Assembly: GCA_004298015.1 (NCBI GenBank)
Contig: SCSE01000035.1
Location: 1 to 64,000 of the forward strand
Source of the DNA: Rhodanobacter sp.
Lineage (GTDB): Bacteria > Pseudomonadota > Gammaproteobacteria > Xanthomonadales > Rhodanobacteraceae
Direction of reading: 5' to 3'
DNA: 64,000 bases
The notes under the pieces were generated by a model. That model made no database searches and was not told the DNA's origin. It worked only from the letters and a program-made list of their open reading frames with translations. Every line of letters starts with the position of its first letter. Within the stretch, counting starts at the first letter, position 1. The translations under genes and the position numbers were made by a program. This document shows, piece after piece, positions 9,952-58,822 of this stretch.

Positions 9952-10146
9952 TTCCGCGCGATGCCCGTCTCGTCGTGTCTGCGCGCCCGCTAAGGTCGAG
10001 CACACGGGAAACGGCGCCAGGCGAGCATCCCGTGTCTGACCGAGCGGCCCGCCGTCACAGCGGTGGCGCTTTCGCCGAAAATATCTGCCGGCGCCAGTCC
10101 GGATCATCCTGAAACGCCCATCCTGTCCACCGTGGTGGTTCCCTTT

Positions 10147-10171
10147 CCCCTCCCCGCGAGGGGATTTTTTT
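10147..10171 (+). terminator. Rho-independent terminator
   Basis: CCCCTC-CCCGC-GAGGGG forms a 6-bp G/C stem followed by A and seven T residues. It would end plus-strand transcripts from the small ORFs at 9709-9951 or a small RNA from the 9952-10146 stretch, where I see no convincing gene. Confidence 0.6.
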
Positions 10172-10376
10172 ACCTCCACATGTGGCCACCGTGCAGGCAA
10201 GCCACCGCAGTATTTCATCACTGCGGGAACCATTCCTCAACCGCGCGGTCAATAGCTTCGATTGGCGACGTCTCCATTGCCGTGGAACGCGCCGGCGCGG
10301 CTACTGACCCTCCCTTGCAGCGGTCGTGCCGGCGGGCCAATCGATGGTGTTGACCTCACGTCCTCCGACGACGTTG

Positions 10377-10411
10377 ATCCCGGCGCAGCTGTTCAGGGCG
10401 CCGGGATTTTT
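10377..10411 (+). terminator. Second plus-strand terminator in the same gap
   Basis: A perfect 10-bp stem ATCCCGGCGC/GCGCCGGGAT (10377-10386 and 10398-10407) closes an 11-base loop and is followed by T-rich sequence. About 200 bases separate it from the preceding terminator and no open frame in that interval is credible. A separate short transcript, for example a small RNA, would explain two terminators in series. Apart from these hairpins the 9952-10464 gap shows nothing I can name. Confidence 0.55.
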
Positions 10412-10464
10412 ATGCGCGGATGCCCCGGCCTGCCATCAGACGGCACAGCGCGCCGGTATAGAGC

Positions 10465-10534
10465 GCGCAAATATTCAGCCGATCGCCTTGCGCATGGCGG
10501 CGCAAATACTCAGCCGATCGCCTTGCGCATGGCG
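10465..10534. repeat. 35-bp tandem duplication of the 3' end of rpe
   Basis: Two adjacent 35-bp units (10465-10499 and 10500-10534) differ by one base. The inner unit contains the last codons and the TGA of rpe; the outer one is a duplicate beyond the stop. The coding sequence is therefore intact, and the second copy is a slippage or unequal-exchange duplication in the 3' untranslated region. Confidence 0.85.
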
Positions 10535-11208: not shown

Positions 11209-11283
11209 CGTGTAGGAGCGCACCCTGTGCGCGAATGCTCTTGAGGCCGCAAAGGCATCGCGCACAGGGTGCGCTCCTACACG
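11209..11283. repeat. GTAG-type REP palindrome pair, copy 1
   Basis: TGTAGGAGCGCACCCTGTGC begins the left arm, and the right arm is its exact inverted complement ending GCTCCTACACG. The two arms enclose about 23 bases. The GTAG head is the hallmark of REP elements mobilised by RAYT transposases in Stenotrophomonas and relatives (SMAG-like). A second copy with the same arms lies at 32734-32813. It sits between djlA and rpe, where it may act as a transcript-stabilising or terminating hairpin. Confidence 0.85.
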
Positions 11284-14590: not shown

Positions 14591-17500
14591 TCAATGAAAA
14601 TCGCGCGAGCGGCTGTCCAGCGCACCCAGCAGTGCACTCATGTCGGCGAGCCGAGCGGCGATCAGGTGACTGACCCCGTCGACGCTTTCCCACTGCCCTT
14701 CCACGCCGAGCAGGCTGGCCTCCAGATACACGCGCCGCTGACGCTCGGCCACATGGCGCCAGACCACCACGTTGATCAAGCCGTGCTCGTCCTCCATGGT
14801 GATGAAGGTGACCCCGCTGGCGGTCTGCGGCTGCTGGCGCTGGGTCACCAGACCGGCTGCGCGCACCCGGCTCTGGTGCGGCTGGCGGCGCAGGCTGCGT
14901 GAATCGACATAGCGCGCCGCACGCAGCCGCGGACGGATCAATTTCAGTGGATGCGGCCCCAGGCTGAGGCCGGTGCGGGCATAGTCGGCCTGCAGGTTTT
15001 CCGCCGTCGAGGGCGAGGGCAACACGATCGCCTGCTCGGCCGGACTGGCGCGACCGAACAGCGGCAGTTGCGGCTCGACCCCGGCCACCGCCCACTTCGC
15101 CCGATGGCGATGACCGGCCAACCCGCGCAGCGCGCCCGCCTCGGCCAGTAGCTCCTGCTGGCGTCGGTCGATGCCGGTACGCGTGCACAGGTCGACCAGG
15201 TCGGTGAACGCGCTGGCGGCCCGTGCCGCCGCCAGCCGCGCCGCCACATCCTGGCGAAAACCGCGCACCTGGCGCAGGCCGAGCCGCAGCGCCGGCTGGC
15301 CGCGACCACGCGGATCGTGCTCCAGCGTGCAGTCCCAGTCGCTGTGGCGCACATCCAGCGGGCGCACCGCGATGCCGTGGCGCTGCACGTCCTGCACGAT
15401 CTGGCTTGGGCCATAGAAACCCATCGGCTGGGCATTCAACAACGCGCAGGCAAACGCGGCCGGTTGGTGGCATTTCAGCCAGCAGCTGGCGTAGACGATG
15501 CCGGCAAAACTCGCCGCGTGGCTTTCCGGAAAACCGTAGCTGCCGAAGCCCTTGATCTGCTCGAACAGCCGCGCCGCGAACTCGGCGGTATAACCGCGCT
15601 CGAGCATGCCGCGCATGATCCGCTCGCGATGTTTCTCCATGCCGCCATGACGTTTCCACGCGGCCATCGCCCGGCGCAGCTGATCGGCCTCGCCCGGCGT
15701 ATAGCCGGCCGCCACGATCGCCAGCTTCATCACCTGCTCCTGGAACAGCGGCACGCCGAGGGTGCGTTCGAACACCGCCTTGAGATCCTCCGACGGATAG
15801 TCCACCGCCTCCTCGCCACGACGCCGGCGCAGGTAGGGATGCACCATGTCGCCCTGGATCGGGCCGGGCCGCACGATCGCCACCTGAATCACCAGGTCGT
15901 AGAAATTCGCCGGCCGATGCCGCGGCAGCATCGCCATCTGCGCGCGGCTCTCGATCTGGAACACGCCGAGGGTGTCGGCGTTCTGGATCATCCGGTAGGT
16001 GGCTGGATCCTCGGCCGGCAACGTCGCCATCGTGTAATCCTGGCCACGCTGTGCACGTAGCAGGTCGAGACACTTGCGCACGCAAGTGAGCATGCCCAGC
16101 GCCAGGCAATCGACCTTGAGCAGCCTCATCGTGTCCAGATCGTCTTTGTCCCACTGGATGATGGTGCGCTCGGGCATCGCCGCGTTTTCCACCGGCACCA
16201 GTTCGCTCAGCGGCGCATCGCTGATCACGAAACCGCCGACGTGCTGCGACAGATGCCGCGGCATGTCGAGCAGCTCGGCGGTGAGTTTCAGCACCCGCCG
16301 CAGCACCGCGCTATCCGGATCGAAGCCGCGTTCGCGCAACCGCTCATCGAGGCTGGTCACGCCATCCCACCAGGCAAAAATCGCGCTCAACTGATCGACC
16401 TGGTCCAGCGGCAGGCCCAGCGCCTTGGCCACGTCGCGCACTGCGCTCTTGCCGCAATAGCAGATCACCGTCGCCGCCAGCGCGGCGCGCTCGCGGCCAT
16501 ACTTGCGGTAGATGTACTGGATCACCTGCTCGCGCCGCTCGTGCTCGAAATCCACGTCGATGTCGGGCGGCTCGTTGCGCTCCTTGCTGATGAAGCGCTC
16601 GACCAGCAGGTTCATCCGCGCCGGGTCGACCTCGGTCACGCCGAGCGCGTAACACACTGCGGAATTGGCCGCTGAGCCGCGACCCTGGCAAAGGATTCCC
16701 TCGCTGCGCGCGTAGCGCACGATGTCGTGCACGGTGAGGAAATACGACTCGTAGCGCAGCTCCTCGATCAGGCACAGTTCGTGCTCGATCTGCGCGCGGA
16801 CTTTTTCCGTCGCACCGTCCGGCCAGCGCCAGCGCATGCCTTCCTCGGTGAGCTGGCGCAGCCAGCTGATCGCGCTGTGGCCCGCCGGCACCAGTTCGTT
16901 GGGGTAACGATATTCCAGCTGGTCGAGACTGAACTGGCAGCGCGCGGCGATCGCCACGCTCTCCTGCAGCAGGGCGTCAGGATAGATCGCCGCCAGCGCC
17001 TCGCGCCGGCGCAGGTGACGCTCGCCATTGCGAAAGATCAGCGCGCCGGCCTCGGCGATCGGCAGCCGGTGGCGGATCGCGGTCAAGGTGTTTTGCAGCG
17101 CCAGCCGGCGACGCACATGCATGTGCACGTCGCCGGCGGCGACCAGGGGTAGCTCCAGGCTGGCCGCCAGTCTTTCCAGCTCGCGCAGGCGCTGCGCATC
17201 GTCGGCGCCGTGGTGCAATTCCACCGCCAGCCATGCGCGCGTGCCGAAGGTCGCACGCAGCCAGCGCCCGTGCGCGGGGTCGGGCTGAGGTTCGGGCAGC
17301 CACAAGGCGAGCGTGCCCGGCAGGCCATCGATCAGGTCGGCGCAGCGCAGTCGGTACGTGCCCTTGCCTGCGGCGCGCCGGCCGCGCGTGATCAGCCCGC
17401 ACAGGGCGGTATAGCCGGCGCGGTTCTCGCACAGCAACACCAGCTTCGGGCCATCCTGCAACTGGAATTCGGCGCCCACGATCAGTTTCACGCCGGTCTC

Positions 17501-17668
17501 GCGCGAGGCTTCCAACGCACGGACGATGCCGGCCAGCGAGCATTCGTCGGTGATCGCCAGCGCGCTGTAACCGCAGCTTCTGGCGCGCTCGAACAGCTCC
17601 CGCGCGCTGGAGGCGCCACGCCCGAACGAGAACGCCGACAGGCAATGCAGCTCGGCATACGCGTTCAC
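14591..17668 (-). CDS. dnaE2: Error-prone DNA polymerase DnaE2 (ImuC)
   Basis: A 1025-residue C-family polymerase of the DnaE2/ImuC branch, the catalytic subunit of the SOS mutasome with ImuA and ImuB. The N-terminal PHP domain starts [18 protein letters not shown]. The palm carries the catalytic [20 protein letters not shown] stretch with [16 protein letters not shown] before it. Finger and OB-fold motifs follow ([35 protein letters not shown]). The GTG at 17668 overlaps the imuB TGA (GTGA) and gives NAYAELHC as the opening, so the frame upstream is not used. It is the last gene of the lexA2-imuA-imuB-dnaE2 operon and should be induced by DNA damage. Confidence 0.95.
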
Positions 17669-19065
17669 GCGAACCAACCCTGCAGCATCCAGCCGGTCTG
17701 CTCGCCCGGCGCGCAAAACGCCCACGCGCGCTGGCCCTGCGCGGTCTCGACCACGTAGTAATCGCGGCATACCTCGCCGCCATCCCACCAGCCGGTTTCC
17801 AGCCGCTCGGGGCCAGCCAGGATGCGCGGCCCCCGCCCGCGCAGTGGAATCGGCCGATCCAGCAGCCAGGTCGGTCGCGGCGACGGTTCCTGCGCGCCGT
17901 CGTCGCGCGCTGCGATGCGCTGTGCCCGCTCCGGCCGCGGGTCGGTGGTGCTGCCCAGTTGATGCACGGCACGGTCGCCGAGGCGCGCACGCAGGCGCTC
18001 GCGCAGTTGCTCGATCGGCAAGGCATTCGCCGGGCGCTCGTCGAACAGGTCGCGACCGGCCGGCACGAACGGCGGCAACTCGCGTGCCAACAGGCGCAGG
18101 GCAAGTACCGGCGCAGGCAGTTGCACTTGTTCCAGCCGTCCGCGCGCCAGTTCGAACAACATGCCGGCATCCCGCTCCGGCGTCAGCAGGCCGACCGCCA
18201 TGTCGGTGACGCTGTCACGATGTTCCAGTCGCAGCAGGAAGCGCTGCACCCCGCCGTCGCGACCGGCCAGATAGGCGGCCAGATCGGCCGTCATGCGGCG
18301 CAACGGAAACACCAGCGCGGCGAGGTTCTCGACTTCGTGCGACAACTCGACGCGCAGGCCGAAGCTGTCCGGCGGACGAAAACTGTCCAGCCCGGCCGGG
18401 GTCTCGCCGGTCAGGCGGTCCAGCGCCAGCAGCAGCTCCGCACCGAAGCGTCGGCGCAAGCCATCGCGCGGCATCCGCAGCAACTGACCGAGGTTGCGGA
18501 CGCCCATGCCCGGCAACGCGGCGGCGGTCGCGGTGGGCAAGCGGCTCTTGTGCAGCGGCACGTGCTGCAGCGCGCGGCCCAACGCCTCGGGCGTCAGCAC
18601 CGCCTGGCCGTCGTCGACGCCAGCCAGCACATACGCCGCATGCGCGGTAGGCGCCACGCTGATGCGGTGGCGAAAGCCCAGCGCGGTGAAATCCGAACGC
18701 AGCATGCTTTCCAGCCGAGGCCACGGACCGAACAGGCCCATGCTGCGGCTCACCTCCAGCACGATCGCATGCGGCAGCAGGCTCACCTCGGAGCTGTAGC
18801 GATACGCCACCGCAGCGAGAAACTGCTGCCAGCGATCCACCGCGTCGGGCTCGTACGGCAAGGCCTCGAAGCGGGCCAGCAAGGCTTGTGCGGCGCTCAG
18901 CCGCTGACCCACGCGCAGGCCGGCTTCACGTGCCGCGGCGTTGACCGCCACGATGCTGCGCGCCTGCGCCGCGCCGGCTACCAGCACCAGCGGGCCGGCC
19001 GTGGGCCGCCGACGGAGGACTCCATCCAGCGCCAGTTGCGGCAACAATACACAGGCCCACAACAT
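17665..19065 (-). CDS. imuB: Y-family polymerase-like mutasome subunit ImuB
   Basis: A 466-residue DinB/UmuC-superfamily protein that has lost polymerase function: the N-terminus ([19 protein letters not shown]) lacks the catalytic aspartate of the active family's MDAFYASVE motif. The palm, fingers and little finger order is kept ([51 protein letters not shown]). ImuB is known to act as a hub that binds the beta clamp, ImuA and DnaE2 rather than as a polymerase. It starts 12 bases after imuA and overlaps dnaE2 by four bases, so all four mutasome genes are tightly packed. Confidence 0.93.
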
Positions 19066-19077
19066 GTCCGCCAGCCA

Positions 19078-19716
19078 TCAATGCAGGGCAGCGAGCGCGA
19101 GCGGCACCGGCTGCGCCGGCACCGCGCCACCGCGGCATTTGCGTACCCATACCTGGGTGCGCGGCGTGGCTTCCAGTTCCAGCCGCAGTGCGGCCGGCGA
19201 GGCATTCGCCAGATGCCGGCGATCGCGAAACGCAAACGCCAGCGCCCGACCGCTGTCGGCCGCCACCTGCAGCCGACGCAGCGCGCGGTCATCCGCCTGC
19301 TGCGGCCACGCCAGTACCGCCGCGCAACTGCCCGAGCGCAGACATTGTTCGGTTGCCCACAACACCTCGCGCGCCGCCGCCGTGACAATCTCGACCCGAC
19401 GCATGTCCACGCCGTGCTGGCGCCAGCCGGCCACGCACGGCGCATACGGCGGCGCCACCAGCATTACGGGACGTGTCCCCCGGCTGAGCCGGGCCAGCGT
19501 GGGCAACACCAATTGCAGCTCGCCCACGCCATCCAGCGGCAGCAGGATTTCCGACAGCGAAGCCTCGGGCCAGCCGCCACTGGGCAGCACCGCATCCAGT
19601 GCAGCCCAGCCGGTCGGCTGCTCGCCGGCCGGTCGTTCGAGGGCAGCCGGCATGGCGCGCCCGCGCCAGACCTGTTGCGCGTCGAGCAGGGTGGACAAGG
19701 CCACCACCGCACTCAT
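19078..19716 (-). CDS. imuA: Mutasome accessory protein ImuA
   Basis: A 212-residue RecA/SulA-like protein. Family features are GWAALDAVLPSGGWPEASLS, EILLPLDGVGELQLVLPTLA, the MLVAPPYAP segment and the C-terminal RTQVWVRKCRGG. ImuA associates with ImuB and RecA and supports translesion synthesis by DnaE2. Its ATG shares one base with the TGA of lexA2. A short, diverged piece of a second imuA is found at about 21256-21298 next to a lexA2 fragment, so the cassette was once duplicated in part. Confidence 0.9.
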   Translation of the reverse strand: MSAVVALSTLLDAQQVWRGRAMPAALERPAGEQPTGWAALDAVLPSGGWPEASLSEILLPLDGVGELQLVLPTLARLSRGTRPVMLVAPPYAPCVAGWRQHGVDMRRVEIVTAAAREVLWATEQCLRSGSCAAVLAWPQQADDRALRRLQVAADSGRALAFAFRDRRHLANASPAALRLELEATPRTQVWVRKCRGGAVPAQPVPLALAALH

Positions 19717-20336
19717 CAGCTACCCCTCAGCAGGCCGGCAAACAGGCCTTCGATGGCGAAATCCTCGGTCGGGTCCGGATCGATCGGCTGATAACCCGGG
19801 CTGTTCGGCAGCAGGCGGATCACCTCACCCTGCCAGTGCAGCCGCTTGATCGTGAAGCGATCGCCGTCGACCCGCGCCGCCACCACCTGGCCATGCCGCG
19901 CCATCGGCGTGGCATGTACGCCGACCAGATCCTGATCGAGGATGCCTTCGTCACGCATGGAATCGCCAACCACCCGCACCAGATAGTCCGGCGGCAACCG
20001 GAACAGCCAGCGCGATACCCGCAGCGTGCGCTCGATCCGCGCCTCGGAAAACAACGGCTCGCCGGCGGCGATCCGACCCACCAGCGGCAACTCCATGGTG
20101 TCCGCATCCAGCGCATCGGCCGTGGTCACCAGCCGGATTCCGCGTGAACGGTTCGGCTCGATCAGCAGCCGCCCCTTGGCCTCCAGCGAGCGCACATGCT
20201 TCAGCACCGCGCTGACATTAGCCAGGCCCATCGCCTGGCCGATCTCTTCCAGCGTGGGCGCCAGCCCGGTCTGCTCCAGTCGTGCCCGGATGAAGTCGAG
20301 GATGTTCGATTGGCGGCTGGTCAGTTGCAGGCTCAT
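19716..20336 (-). CDS. lexA: LexA2-type SOS repressor of the mutasome operon
   Basis: A 206-residue LexA. The N-terminal winged helix (TSRQSNILDFIRARLEQTGL; EIGQAMGLANVSAVLKHVRS) differs from the usual LexA recognition helix. The C-terminal S24 peptidase domain has the AAGEP self-cleavage site, the catalytic serine in VVGDSMRDEG and lysine in DRFTIKRLHW. It represses until RecA filaments trigger autocleavage. The ATG at 20336 is chosen because MSLQLTSRQ is the family opening; the in-frame sequence upstream is the operator palindrome. Located first in lexA2-imuA-imuB-dnaE2, it presumably controls its own operon through a palindrome unlike the canonical CTGT-N8-ACAG box. Confidence 0.93.
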   Translation of the reverse strand: MSLQLTSRQSNILDFIRARLEQTGLAPTLEEIGQAMGLANVSAVLKHVRSLEAKGRLLIEPNRSRGIRLVTTADALDADTMELPLVGRIAAGEPLFSEARIERTLRVSRWLFRLPPDYLVRVVGDSMRDEGILDQDLVGVHATPMARHGQVVAARVDGDRFTIKRLHWQGEVIRLLPNSPGYQPIDPDPTEDFAIEGLFAGLLRGS

Positions 20337-20344
20337 GGCCGCTA

Positions 20345-20370
20345 TATTTTCACCTTTTATGGTGAAAATA
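20345..20370. promoter_or_regulatory. Probable LexA2 operator (perfect 10+10 bp palindrome)
   Basis: TATTTTCACC at 20345-20354 and its exact inverse GGTGAAAATA at 20361-20370 flank a 6-base TTTTAT spacer, 8 bases upstream of the lexA2 ATG. The A+T-rich sequence here likely also holds the -10 region. Position and symmetry point to autoregulation of the mutasome operon by LexA2. The homologous stretch in the decayed copy near 21370-21380 has lost the symmetry. Confidence 0.75.
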
Positions 20371-20584
20371 AAGAAAAACATGGCGCTGCCCTGAAATGCG
20401 CCTCAGGGCAACGCCATCCCGCCTGAGCGCGTCGCCCTACTCGCACAGATGCTGGCGCCGGGACCTGACATTTAACTTCCTCCTCCCCCTCTTATCCGGT
20501 TTCACCGACATCCCGTGTCACGGCTACACTGGACCAATCGGCATTGCCGTATCGCGGCACCCACTACTTCGCGAGGCATTCACG

Positions 20585-20875
20585 ATGTTGCTCGACGCAT
20601 TGCACGGACAAAAAAACGCCATTCATGCCGCATGCCGCCAATTCGGTGCACGTCGCATCCGTGTGTTCGGCTCAGTCGCGCGCGGCGAGGAGCGGCCAGA
20701 TAGCGACATCGATTTTCTGGTGGATTTCCCACCTGGATACGACCCGTTCGGTCAGCGCATGCCATTGGCCGAGCGCCTGGCGCAAATTACAGGCGGACGG
20801 CTGGATCTGATCCCGGAACACGAACTCAACCCTCACCTGCGCGACGCCGTGCTGAAGGAAGCGGTCGAGTTGTGA
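20585..20875 (+). CDS. mntA: MNT-domain nucleotidyltransferase antitoxin (MntA-like)
   Basis: A 96-residue minimal nucleotidyltransferase with the motif GSVARGEERPDSDIDFLVDF (GS, ten residues, DxD) that binds the metal and nucleotide. In MntA/HepT (type VII) systems this protein neutralises its HEPN partner by adding AMP groups to the tyrosine of RX4HXY. The ATG at 20585 lacks a strong ribosome-binding site. The gene overlaps the downstream HEPN gene by four bases (GTGA), as usual for the pair. It is divergent from lexA2 with a 248-base gap whose only named element is the LexA2 operator. The catalytic motif is intact although the partner's target tyrosine is gone. Confidence 0.88.
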   Translation: MLLDALHGQKNAIHAACRQFGARRIRVFGSVARGEERPDSDIDFLVDFPPGYDPFGQRMPLAERLAQITGGRLDLIPEHELNPHLRDAVLKEAVEL

Positions 20876-21201
20876 GCAAGGATTGGCGGGTCTACGCACA
20901 ACATGTTCTCGCCGCCATCGAGAAGATTCGACGTATCGAGCAGCGCGGCGACCTGACAAGAGACGAGGTGCTCTACGACGCCAGCTTGCGCAACCTGCAC
21001 ACCTTGTCCGAGGCGACCCAACGCCTGCCCGACGAACTCAAAAATGCTTACCCGGAAATTCCGTGGCAACAGATCGGTGGATTTCGCAATATTCTCCTGC
21101 TAACTATCTGGGTGACATCGACGCGCAAACGATCGCCAAGGTTAGTGAAACACTACCTGCCGCCGATCGATGTCGCCGTCAGACACATGCTCGCCCACTG
21201 A
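20872..21201 (+). CDS. hepT: HEPN (DUF86, HepT-like) toxin with destroyed active site
   Basis: A 109-residue HEPN protein, the expected RNase toxin of the MntA pair. Residues 1-75 and the C-terminus (VKHYLPPIDVAVRHMLAH) match the family well. The catalytic RX4HXY motif is not encoded. After GFRNILL one base is missing, so the conserved continuation HNYLGDIDAQTIAKV is read out of frame as LTIWVTSTRKRSPRL (the NYLGDIDAQTIAKV part is still legible in the +1 frame, about 21100-21142). An inserted base near 21145 restores the frame. Full length is kept but the active His and Tyr are lost, so the product should be non-toxic. The GTG start overlaps the mntA stop. Confidence 0.85.
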   Translation: MSKDWRVYAQHVLAAIEKIRRIEQRGDLTRDEVLYDASLRNLHTLSEATQRLPDELKNAYPEIPWQQIGGFRNILLLTIWVTSTRKRSPRLVKHYLPPIDVAVRHMLAH

Positions 21202-21255
21202 CTGAGACACTCCACCCGCCCATCTGACGCCGCCAGCATTTTGTGCTGAGAGGCC

Positions 21256-21380
21256 ATGATCACCCGCCGCATGTCCGCGCCATACTGGCGCCAACCCGGC
21301 CTGCTCCAGCCGAGTCCGGCTGAAGTCGAGGATGTTCGATTGGCAGGTGGTCAGCTGCAGGCTGATGGGCGCTATATCTT
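21256..21380. repeat. Decayed fused fragments of imuA and lexA2
   Basis: On the minus strand, 21287-21380 aligns without gaps to the lexA2 5' end and leader at 20257-20350 (offset 1030; 70 of the last 80 bases identical). It still reads SLQLTTCQSNILDFSRTRLE followed by QAGLAP. Directly adjoining, 21256-21298 matches an internal imuA stretch at about 19390-19430 (reads WRQYGADMRRV). The joint removes the rest of lexA2 and the 5' part of imuA. Both fragments are oriented like the intact operon, so mntA-hepT is flanked by direct repeats of the lexA2 head. Confidence 0.85.
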
Positions 21381-21407
21381 TCCCCTTGCGGACCCCGGCC
21401 AGCGCGG

Positions 21408-23639: not shown

Positions 23640-23666
23640 GCTGGCAGACCAGTATCGCCTGCCCCA

Positions 23667-23829
23667 GCAGCCTGTCGGGTTTTGGCGGTCGAGGCGAGTA
23701 TTCGGCTGTGCGAGGACAGATTCCTGACGCTTCGCCGGCCCATCGTGGTTCCATGGGCCAAGAAGCGACGGAAGTAAGGACCACACGGACGGATTCGCAG
23801 ACCGGCCGACCACAGTCCGACAGGCTGCC
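23667..23829 (+). repeat. Dispersed ~163-bp inverted-end element, copy A
   Basis: The element begins GCAGCCTGTCGGGTTTTGGC and ends CAGTCCGACAGGCTGC, giving ~15-bp imperfect inverted ends. Internal landmarks shared with the other copies are GGTCGAGGCGA, TGCGAGGACAGATT, GTGGTTCCATGGGCCA and GATTCGCAGACCGGCCGAC. It fills most of the gap between the convergent ArsR-like and LysR genes. Related copies are at 51531-51692 (reverse), 54986-55148 and 58659-58822. Confidence 0.8.
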
Positions 23830-23879
23830 ATGTCATGCGGCCTTCCCATGGATAACTTCATCCACCCGGACGCTACGCT

Positions 23880-32733: not shown

Positions 32734-32813
32734 TGTAGGAGCGCACCCTGTGCGCGATGCTCTTTCCCGCGATGTGACAAAGAGCGATCGCGCACAGGGT
32801 GCGCTCCTACACG
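32734..32813. repeat. GTAG-type REP palindrome pair, copy 2
   Basis: The arms are the same TGTAGGAGCGCACCCTGTGC sequence plus GCGA and its inverse as in the copy at 11209-11283, here enclosing about 30 bases. It starts seven bases after the dinB stop and ends seven bases before the convergent ABC permease stop, a position where REP hairpins often end or protect both transcripts. Confidence 0.85.
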
Positions 32814-51468: not shown

Positions 51469-51830
51469 TCCGCAGAGGTTGAGAAAATATCGAACACCGT
51501 AGCAGGAGTGTCGCCAGCGGTTCGTGACAAGGAGTCGGCCGGGCTTTGGTTGGCCGGTCTGCGAATCCGTCCGGGCGACCCACTACCTGCGGCGTCCTGG
51601 CCCATAGAACCACTACCCGCCAGCAAAGCGTGAGAAATCGGCCCTCGCACAATCGAATTTTCGTCTCGACCGCCAACGCCCGACAGGCTCCCGGGTGCGT
51701 GCCGGGGAAAGTCCAGGCGTTTGGTGCGCCAGATGATCCGGATCTACCCACAGCGCGCCACTGGGACGGGCCGCGGGTGCCTGACGGCGATCCGCACCAG
51801 GCGGACGATTTTATCTCTACCTCTCAGTAG
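51469..51830 (+). repeat. ~180-bp inverted-end element, copy E1, interrupted by another repeat
   Basis: The two outer parts (51469-51530 and 51693-51830) are together homologous to the uninterrupted copy at 55645-55830. Shared landmarks are GAGGTTGAGAAAATATCGAA at the left and CCAGATGATCCGGAT plus GACGATTTTATCTCTACCTC at the right; the ends are imperfect inverted repeats (GAGGTNGAGANAANATCG). The 162 bases between belong to the ~163-bp family, inserted in reverse. The right end covers the stop codon of the gene at 51824. Confidence 0.7.
51531..51692 (-). repeat. Dispersed ~163-bp inverted-end element, copy D (nested)
   Basis: Read on the minus strand it runs GAGCCTGTCGGG, GTTGGCGGTCGAGACGAAAA, TTCGATTGTGCGAGGGCCGA, GTGGTTCTATGGGCCAGG, GGACGGATTCGCAGACCGGC, closely following the copy at 23667-23829. 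Its inner end is more diverged (GCCCGGCCGACTCC). It splits the E1 element, so it inserted later. Confidence 0.8.
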
Positions 51831-58658: not shown

Positions 58659-58822
58659 GCAGGCTGCCGGGCCTGGGGGGTCGAGGCAAAGATCTGGCTA
58701 CGCGAGGACAGACAGCGACGATTCGCCGGTCGATGGTGGTTCTATGCGGCAAGAATCGATGGCAACATGGACCGCTCAGATAGATTTGCAGACCGGCCGA
58801 TGAAGGTCCGACAGCCTCCTGC
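58659..58822 (+). repeat. Dispersed ~163-bp inverted-end element, copy C
   Basis: It starts GCAGGCTGCCGGGCCTGG and ends GGTCCGACAGCCTCCTGC with inverted ends. Inside are GGGTCGAGGCAAAGATCTGG, CTACGCGAGGACAGACAGCG, TGGTGGTTCTATGCGGCAAG and TTGCAGACCGGCCGATGAAG. It has the most regular ends and would be the best query for the family. Confidence 0.8.

Follow-up and report, generated by a model that had tools for sequence, protein, structure and literature searches.

The window analysed here, a stretch of 64,000 nucleotides from the soil bacterium Rhodanobacter sp. (genome G000 in our comparisons; assembly of 3.93 Mb in 90 contigs), carries an adjoining pair of genes, mntA and hepT, beside the gene lexA2 (Table 1). 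The product of the first matches PF01909 in a profile search (E 3e-12), bears the GSX10DXD motif and adjoins hepT, and is assigned to MntA on these grounds. The product of the second matches the HepT-like family PF01934 (E 8.5e-12; score 45.3 bits, cut-off 23.5) over residues 13-75, the match ending exactly where the R-X4-H-X-Y motif is due. This motif, by which membership of HepT, the toxin of Class I HEPN/MNT pairs, is judged, is absent from the window protein, and the gene is treated here as an apparently broken derivative rather than as a functioning HepT. The start of hepT and the stop of mntA share four bases, an overlap that recurs in 14 of 14 loci with an intact HepT.

Table 1. Features of the mntA-hepT locus in the window
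Feature	Positions	Strand	Description
lexA2	19716-20381	-	LexA DNA-binding and peptidase S24 domains; adjoins the pair, in G039 too
mntA	20585-20875	+	minimal nucleotidyltransferase antitoxin, 96 aa, GSX10DXD intact
hepT	20872-21201	+	HEPN toxin ORF, 109 aa, GTG start
hepT codons 72-76	21085-21099	+	in register: RNIL, then changed residue 76; motif R kept
hepT codons 77-91	21100-21144	+	displaced frame between two single-base length differences; motif His and Tyr lost
hepT codons 92-109	21145-21198	+	register regained relative to the intact relative
lexA2 relic, 101 bases	21287-21387		87% like 20257-20356 inside lexA2

Among the PADLOC models, the window MntA matched the candidate defence family PDC-S09 (best E 9.2e-31) and HepT matched nothing at E 0.1, any role in defence being putative. 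Among the PDB sequences, MntA matched a single entry, 1wot, and the intact HepT of the nearest relative, G039, matched nothing at E 0.01. The nearest named matches to the window HepT are two Rhodanobacter records (L019 and L020). Plasmid records gave two short DNA matches to part of mntA and, with the HepT protein, 33 records, every one below 60% identity. When 20300-21400 was scanned with consensus patterns, no sigma-70-like site emerged; a single terminator-like stem (20417-20380, minus strand) did, shuffled sequences giving as many.

The nearest relative of the locus lies on contig JASBTI010000031.1 of the MAG Rhodanobacter sp. BWSM_3 (G039; L004/L019), where the DNA is nearly identical to that of the window and HepT is intact, with 109 residues (RNILVHNYLGDID) and the motif region RNILVHNYLGDIDAQTIATVVKHYLPP. 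In the window, the encoded frame of this region reads RNILLLTIWVTSTRKRSPRLVKHYLPP, and an alternative frame (ORF 20883-21227) spells NYLGDIDAQTIAKV, so that the canonical HEPN sequence is legible there, as the preliminary description had reported. The survival of the family's conserved residues in the displaced frame is no chance effect. The two compensating frameshifts that had been proposed are likewise seen in the DNA alignment with G039, as two opposite-sign single-base length differences near 21101 and 21142, about 40 nt apart. Residues 77-91 are replaced and R-X4-H-X-Y is lost, while the length of 109 residues is kept and the register agrees with that of G039 over residues 1-75 and 92-109. 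In alignment A1, composed of G039 and 13 others picked for looking intact, H77 and Y79 are present in 14 of 14, and neither occurs in the window HepT. Besides the length differences, five substitutions separate the window hepT from that of G039, one synonymous and four altering the residue of the codon (codons 43, 76, 90 and 99). Gene conversion from a divergent copy was considered and rejected, the window being identical to G039 between the length differences, bar one base just before the second.

The likely consequence of this lesion can be read from the Shewanella oneidensis pair HepT/MntA (SO_3166/SO_3165), which, in the portions of PMC7641770 and PMC4621449 drawn on here, has the antitoxin gene first and the toxin gene second, as in the window, and shares with it the MNT motif GSX10DXD and a toxin of the HepT-like family PF01934. 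In that toxin, R97G and H102A each remove toxicity (PMC4621449), and Tyr104 of RX4HXY is the AMP acceptor, with MntA as the donor through GSX10DXD (PMC7641770). The window HepT, unlike its S. oneidensis counterpart, has no R-X4-H-X-Y and so neither the RNase histidine nor the adenylylated tyrosine. By analogy with the Shewanella mutants, its product would be non-toxic, and the detoxified allele suggested by the preliminary description is likely. MntA keeps its motif, as had also been noted, yet the described adenylylation of its own partner cannot occur because the target tyrosine is absent. The two sources differ on what follows for neutralisation: with a tyrosine-mutant HepT, MntA still neutralised the toxin according to PMC4621449, whereas neutralisation was reduced according to PMC7641770.

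The recent history of the pair was followed by polarising differences between the window and G039 on the outgroup majority, with the displaced HepT residues 77-91 and the unclear ImuA position 26 left out. Changes at MntA 11, 54 and 71 (of which 54 and 71 are near-invariant in the other 17 loci compared) and at HepT 43, 76 and 99 are derived on the window lineage, and none is derived in G039. The control genes gave 7:8 derived changes for window and G039 (lexA2 2:3, imuA 5:5), against 6:0 for the pair (Fisher P 0.046; the numbers are small). Synonymous divergence is 0.090 in mntA, 0.020 in hepT codons 1-75 and none in codons 92-109, as against 0.166 in lexA2 and 0.282 in imuA; when pooled, the pair has 7 synonymous changes in about 135 sites and lexA2 with imuA 68 in about 353 (P 4e-5). 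From this lower divergence we infer that mntA-hepT was probably exchanged between the window and G039 lineages after their split, in which case the changes in hepT would be recent.

No mntA-hepT block adjoins lexA2 at any of 28 other Rhodanobacter lexA2 loci (flanks of up to 1.5 kb), and the low divergence of the block (20457-21220) together with this absence suggests recent exchange or insertion. The preliminary description had suggested that the detoxified allele was perhaps fixed once a lexA2 cassette was duplicated. This link is not supported: only the 101-base relic lies downstream, with no cassette and nothing that connects it to the hepT lesion. Of the earlier interpretation, the lesion, the motif loss and the likely detoxification thus stand, and the tie to a lexA2 duplication does not.

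Several features elsewhere in the window are recorded for completeness. Two near-palindromic, MITE- or REP-like elements of about 75-80 bases (11209-11283 and 32734-32813) are 82-84% alike and resemble their own reverse complements at 86-89%; the first has a 76-base match of 98.7% on the G039 contig. At 23663-23835, 51525-51695 and 58659-58817 lie dispersed repeats, each about 160-174 bases long and 74-77% similar to one another. A further pair of opposite-sign single-base gaps relative to G039, nine bases apart (17415-17424), falls inside a long minus-strand ORF (14594-18214), and it may stem from the alignment itself, the sequence being divergent there.

The state of the two genes was then compared across 233 genomes of the Rhodanobacteraceae, one per species, searched with both MntA and HepT. 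HepT was scored as intact when an uninterrupted ORF ran from the overlapping start and held R-X4-H-X-Y, and MntA when it reached its stop after 96 residues (in G194, 95 as counted from the start of the alignment) with its motif present. The MntA subtype of the window occurs in 19 of the 233 genomes; HepT of any subtype was matched in 27 (E 0.001), 17 of which have this subtype, partial copies included, and all 17 fall within the 19. HepT is intact in 7 of the 19 (G039, G038, G032, G028, G011, G207 and G171) and broken or absent in the other 12, among which MntA is intact in seven: the window, with its two compensating length differences; G179, with a stop after residue 59; G030, with a stop at codon 5; G008, with a stop at codon 5 and a frame change near 68; G014, with a frame change at a site other than that of G015; G194, reduced to an N-terminal piece; and G027, in which an internal deletion leaves 46 residues. 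MntA is damaged as well in G025 (its stop lost and the ORF continuing; hepT with a frame change near 89 and no start codon), G015 (hepT with a frame change), G170 (motif Asp changed to Asn; an N-terminal piece of hepT), G037 (an N-terminal piece only) and G082 (no hepT found). An intact HepT beside a damaged MntA was found in none of the seven family genomes with an intact HepT.

The same asymmetry extends beyond the family. In a class draw of 369 genomes, ten others carry this MntA: five have intact pairs (G595, G791, G830, G767 and G593), four an intact MntA with HepT broken or absent (G779, G750, G640 and G542), and one a partial MntA with no HepT (G846); every genome that gave one of the eight HepT matches of at least 55% identity in this draw, the window aside, carries this MntA. 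An order draw of 398 genomes adds one locus, G338, which is intact, and outside these draws the pair is intact in Nitrosomonas (L021), and MntA is intact beside a frame-broken HepT in Thiohalocapsa (L022). Over the family, the class draw and Thiohalocapsa, loci drawn by likeness to MntA or HepT, the discordant pairs number 12 with loss of the toxin only and 0 with loss of the antitoxin only (P 0.0005 if independent), and in the family alone 7 and 0 (P 0.016). Six loci (G170, G025, G015, G037, G082 and, from the class draw, G846) are kept out of the 12 because MntA is damaged there too, and G082 (57% identity) and G542 (61%, with another gene after mntA) may belong to other subtypes. Among other HepT subtypes, at 32-47% identity, 11 of 11 loci retain R-X4-H-X-Y and have the MntA motif encoded upstream, although no loss rate can be drawn from them because the E-value limit there favours intact copies; a twelfth locus in that set, L122, is the G750 locus already scored as broken.

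Broken states are scattered in the MntA tree, the window having an intact sister in G039 and G008 standing among intact genomes. The losses of HepT are not all independent, however, given the weakly supported group that unites G025, G014, G015, G030 and G037. G030 (L005) and G008 (L011) carry a TGA at the identical hepT codon 5, Trp in most relatives, and stand in separate parts of the tree despite it, which points to recurrence or exchange. In G170 (L069), Asn replaces the first Asp of the DXD of MntA beside the truncated hepT. In G014 (L051), a 111-aa ORF that begins 10 nt past the mntA stop fuses an N-terminal half read out of frame to a half in frame that bears RNILVHNY. In G027 (L060), the first ten or so residues are joined in frame to residue 79 onward, and the deletion takes out the motif R and His.

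The alternative that best survives these data, though still an unlikely one, is a local sequencing or assembly error, by which the HepT of the strain would be intact and the contig wrong at several bases. Five of the seven hepT changes fall within 70 nt (three transversions and the two single-base length differences), four of the five substitutions are transversions as against 28% in imuA, imuB and lexA2 (P 0.024), and the sister HepT is intact; there are also 9 and 18 gaps in two segments aligned with G039 (1.7 and 4.2 kb), many of which crowd into 10130-10503. Against this, the clustering is not significant under either of two null sets (P 0.10 and 0.59), neither length-difference site has three or more equal bases in a row, and in two aligned segments of 9.4 kb the gaps amount only to an opposite-sign single-base pair, a 3-base gap and a gap where a segment ends. 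Neither lexA2 nor imuA shows a surplus of derived changes on the window side, and mntA bears derived changes too. Random errors would strike genes of similar length alike, and error alone therefore does not yield the 12:0 asymmetry between hepT and mntA across species.

A second question is whether MntA is retained for its own sake. Between genomes in which HepT is broken in both (G179/G170, G030/G037, G014/G015 and G014/G025), the dN/dS of mntA is 0.08-0.13, so that MntA is not plainly drifting there; it is 0.04-0.07 in three pairs of which both members have an intact HepT. Mixed pairs gave 0.04 (G008/G032), 0.07 (G008/G028), 0.13 (G779/G830), 0.16 (window/G039) and 0.33 (G194/G207). The balance of these values leans towards a constraint that is somewhat relaxed but present. 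That this subtype of MntA is selected after the death of its toxin, as a stand-alone adenylyltransferase that shields the cell from incoming HepT-bearing elements (anti-addiction) or controls other genes, with the window as an early stage in which HepT is full-length and disarmed, is a speculative reading that we consider doubtful.

The kept length of the window HepT could also mean that selection restored the frame because a dead full-length protein is still of use, for example as a partner that binds MntA, as a stabiliser of the operon mRNA by way of translational coupling or as a regulator. The register and length of the protein and the start-stop overlap, which suggests coupled translation, speak for this, and in another family an inactive pair reportedly serves in regulation (PMC11826091). 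It is nevertheless improbable, the allele being seen in one genome; in 11 of the 12 family loci without an intact HepT the copy is missing, out of register or shortened by truncation or deletion, and for this reason no need for a full-length HepT is visible. To regain register at both ends is unusual for a broken copy, and only G027, through its large internal deletion, also keeps the frame. Programmed recoding, in which ribosomes would leave the frame and return to make the canonical motif, draws on the residues legible in another frame and can be virtually dismissed, since it requires two shifts of opposite sign separated by some 14 codons, inspection by eye shows no known slippery heptamer at the first site and relatives encode the motif with no shift at all.

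The reading we favour, at a probability of roughly 0.7, is that mntA-hepT in the window is a chromosomal toxin-antitoxin pair of type VII (MNT/HEPN) with an inactivated toxin, a module in decay. The two length differences displace the frame over residues 77-91 and remove the catalytic His and the Tyr adenylylated by MntA, leaving a product presumably unable to cleave RNA. The host cell would then be freed from needing MntA against its own HepT, and both genes would have begun to drift. The recovery of the frame is probably a second chance hit in a little-constrained gene, or else the whole is one clustered mutation. The window allele would be one instance of a recurring process in which the toxin is lost first, because loss of the antitoxin first would be costly.

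The features of a decaying chromosomal module are found here, namely a damaged toxin frame, a kept antitoxin ORF and intact relatives, with the loss of toxicity deduced from the motif. Decay of such modules has been published (PMC2654758, PMC7167474), and solo toxins and solo antitoxins are on record (PMC2701414), in the portions of these papers available. The ccdO157 module of the E. coli chromosome (Mine et al. 2009, as cited in the first two) is likewise a chromosomal module in decay; it belongs to a different toxin-antitoxin family, and the present case differs in offering one full-length, frame-restored allele and decay that recurs across the species of a family. A thin search of the open-licence literature returned no mention of HepT decay in the titles and opening lines of abstracts among the matches listed. 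The window locus is a new, well-documented case of known toxin-antitoxin decay, and the repeated loss of the toxin first is the most useful part of the finding. If real, it would supply a dozen natural HepT knock-outs with an intact MntA adjoining and none of the reverse, and sequence evidence that HepT without MntA harms its host; it would then become testable whether MntA left on its own is only a remnant or has a task, such as blocking addiction by incoming elements.
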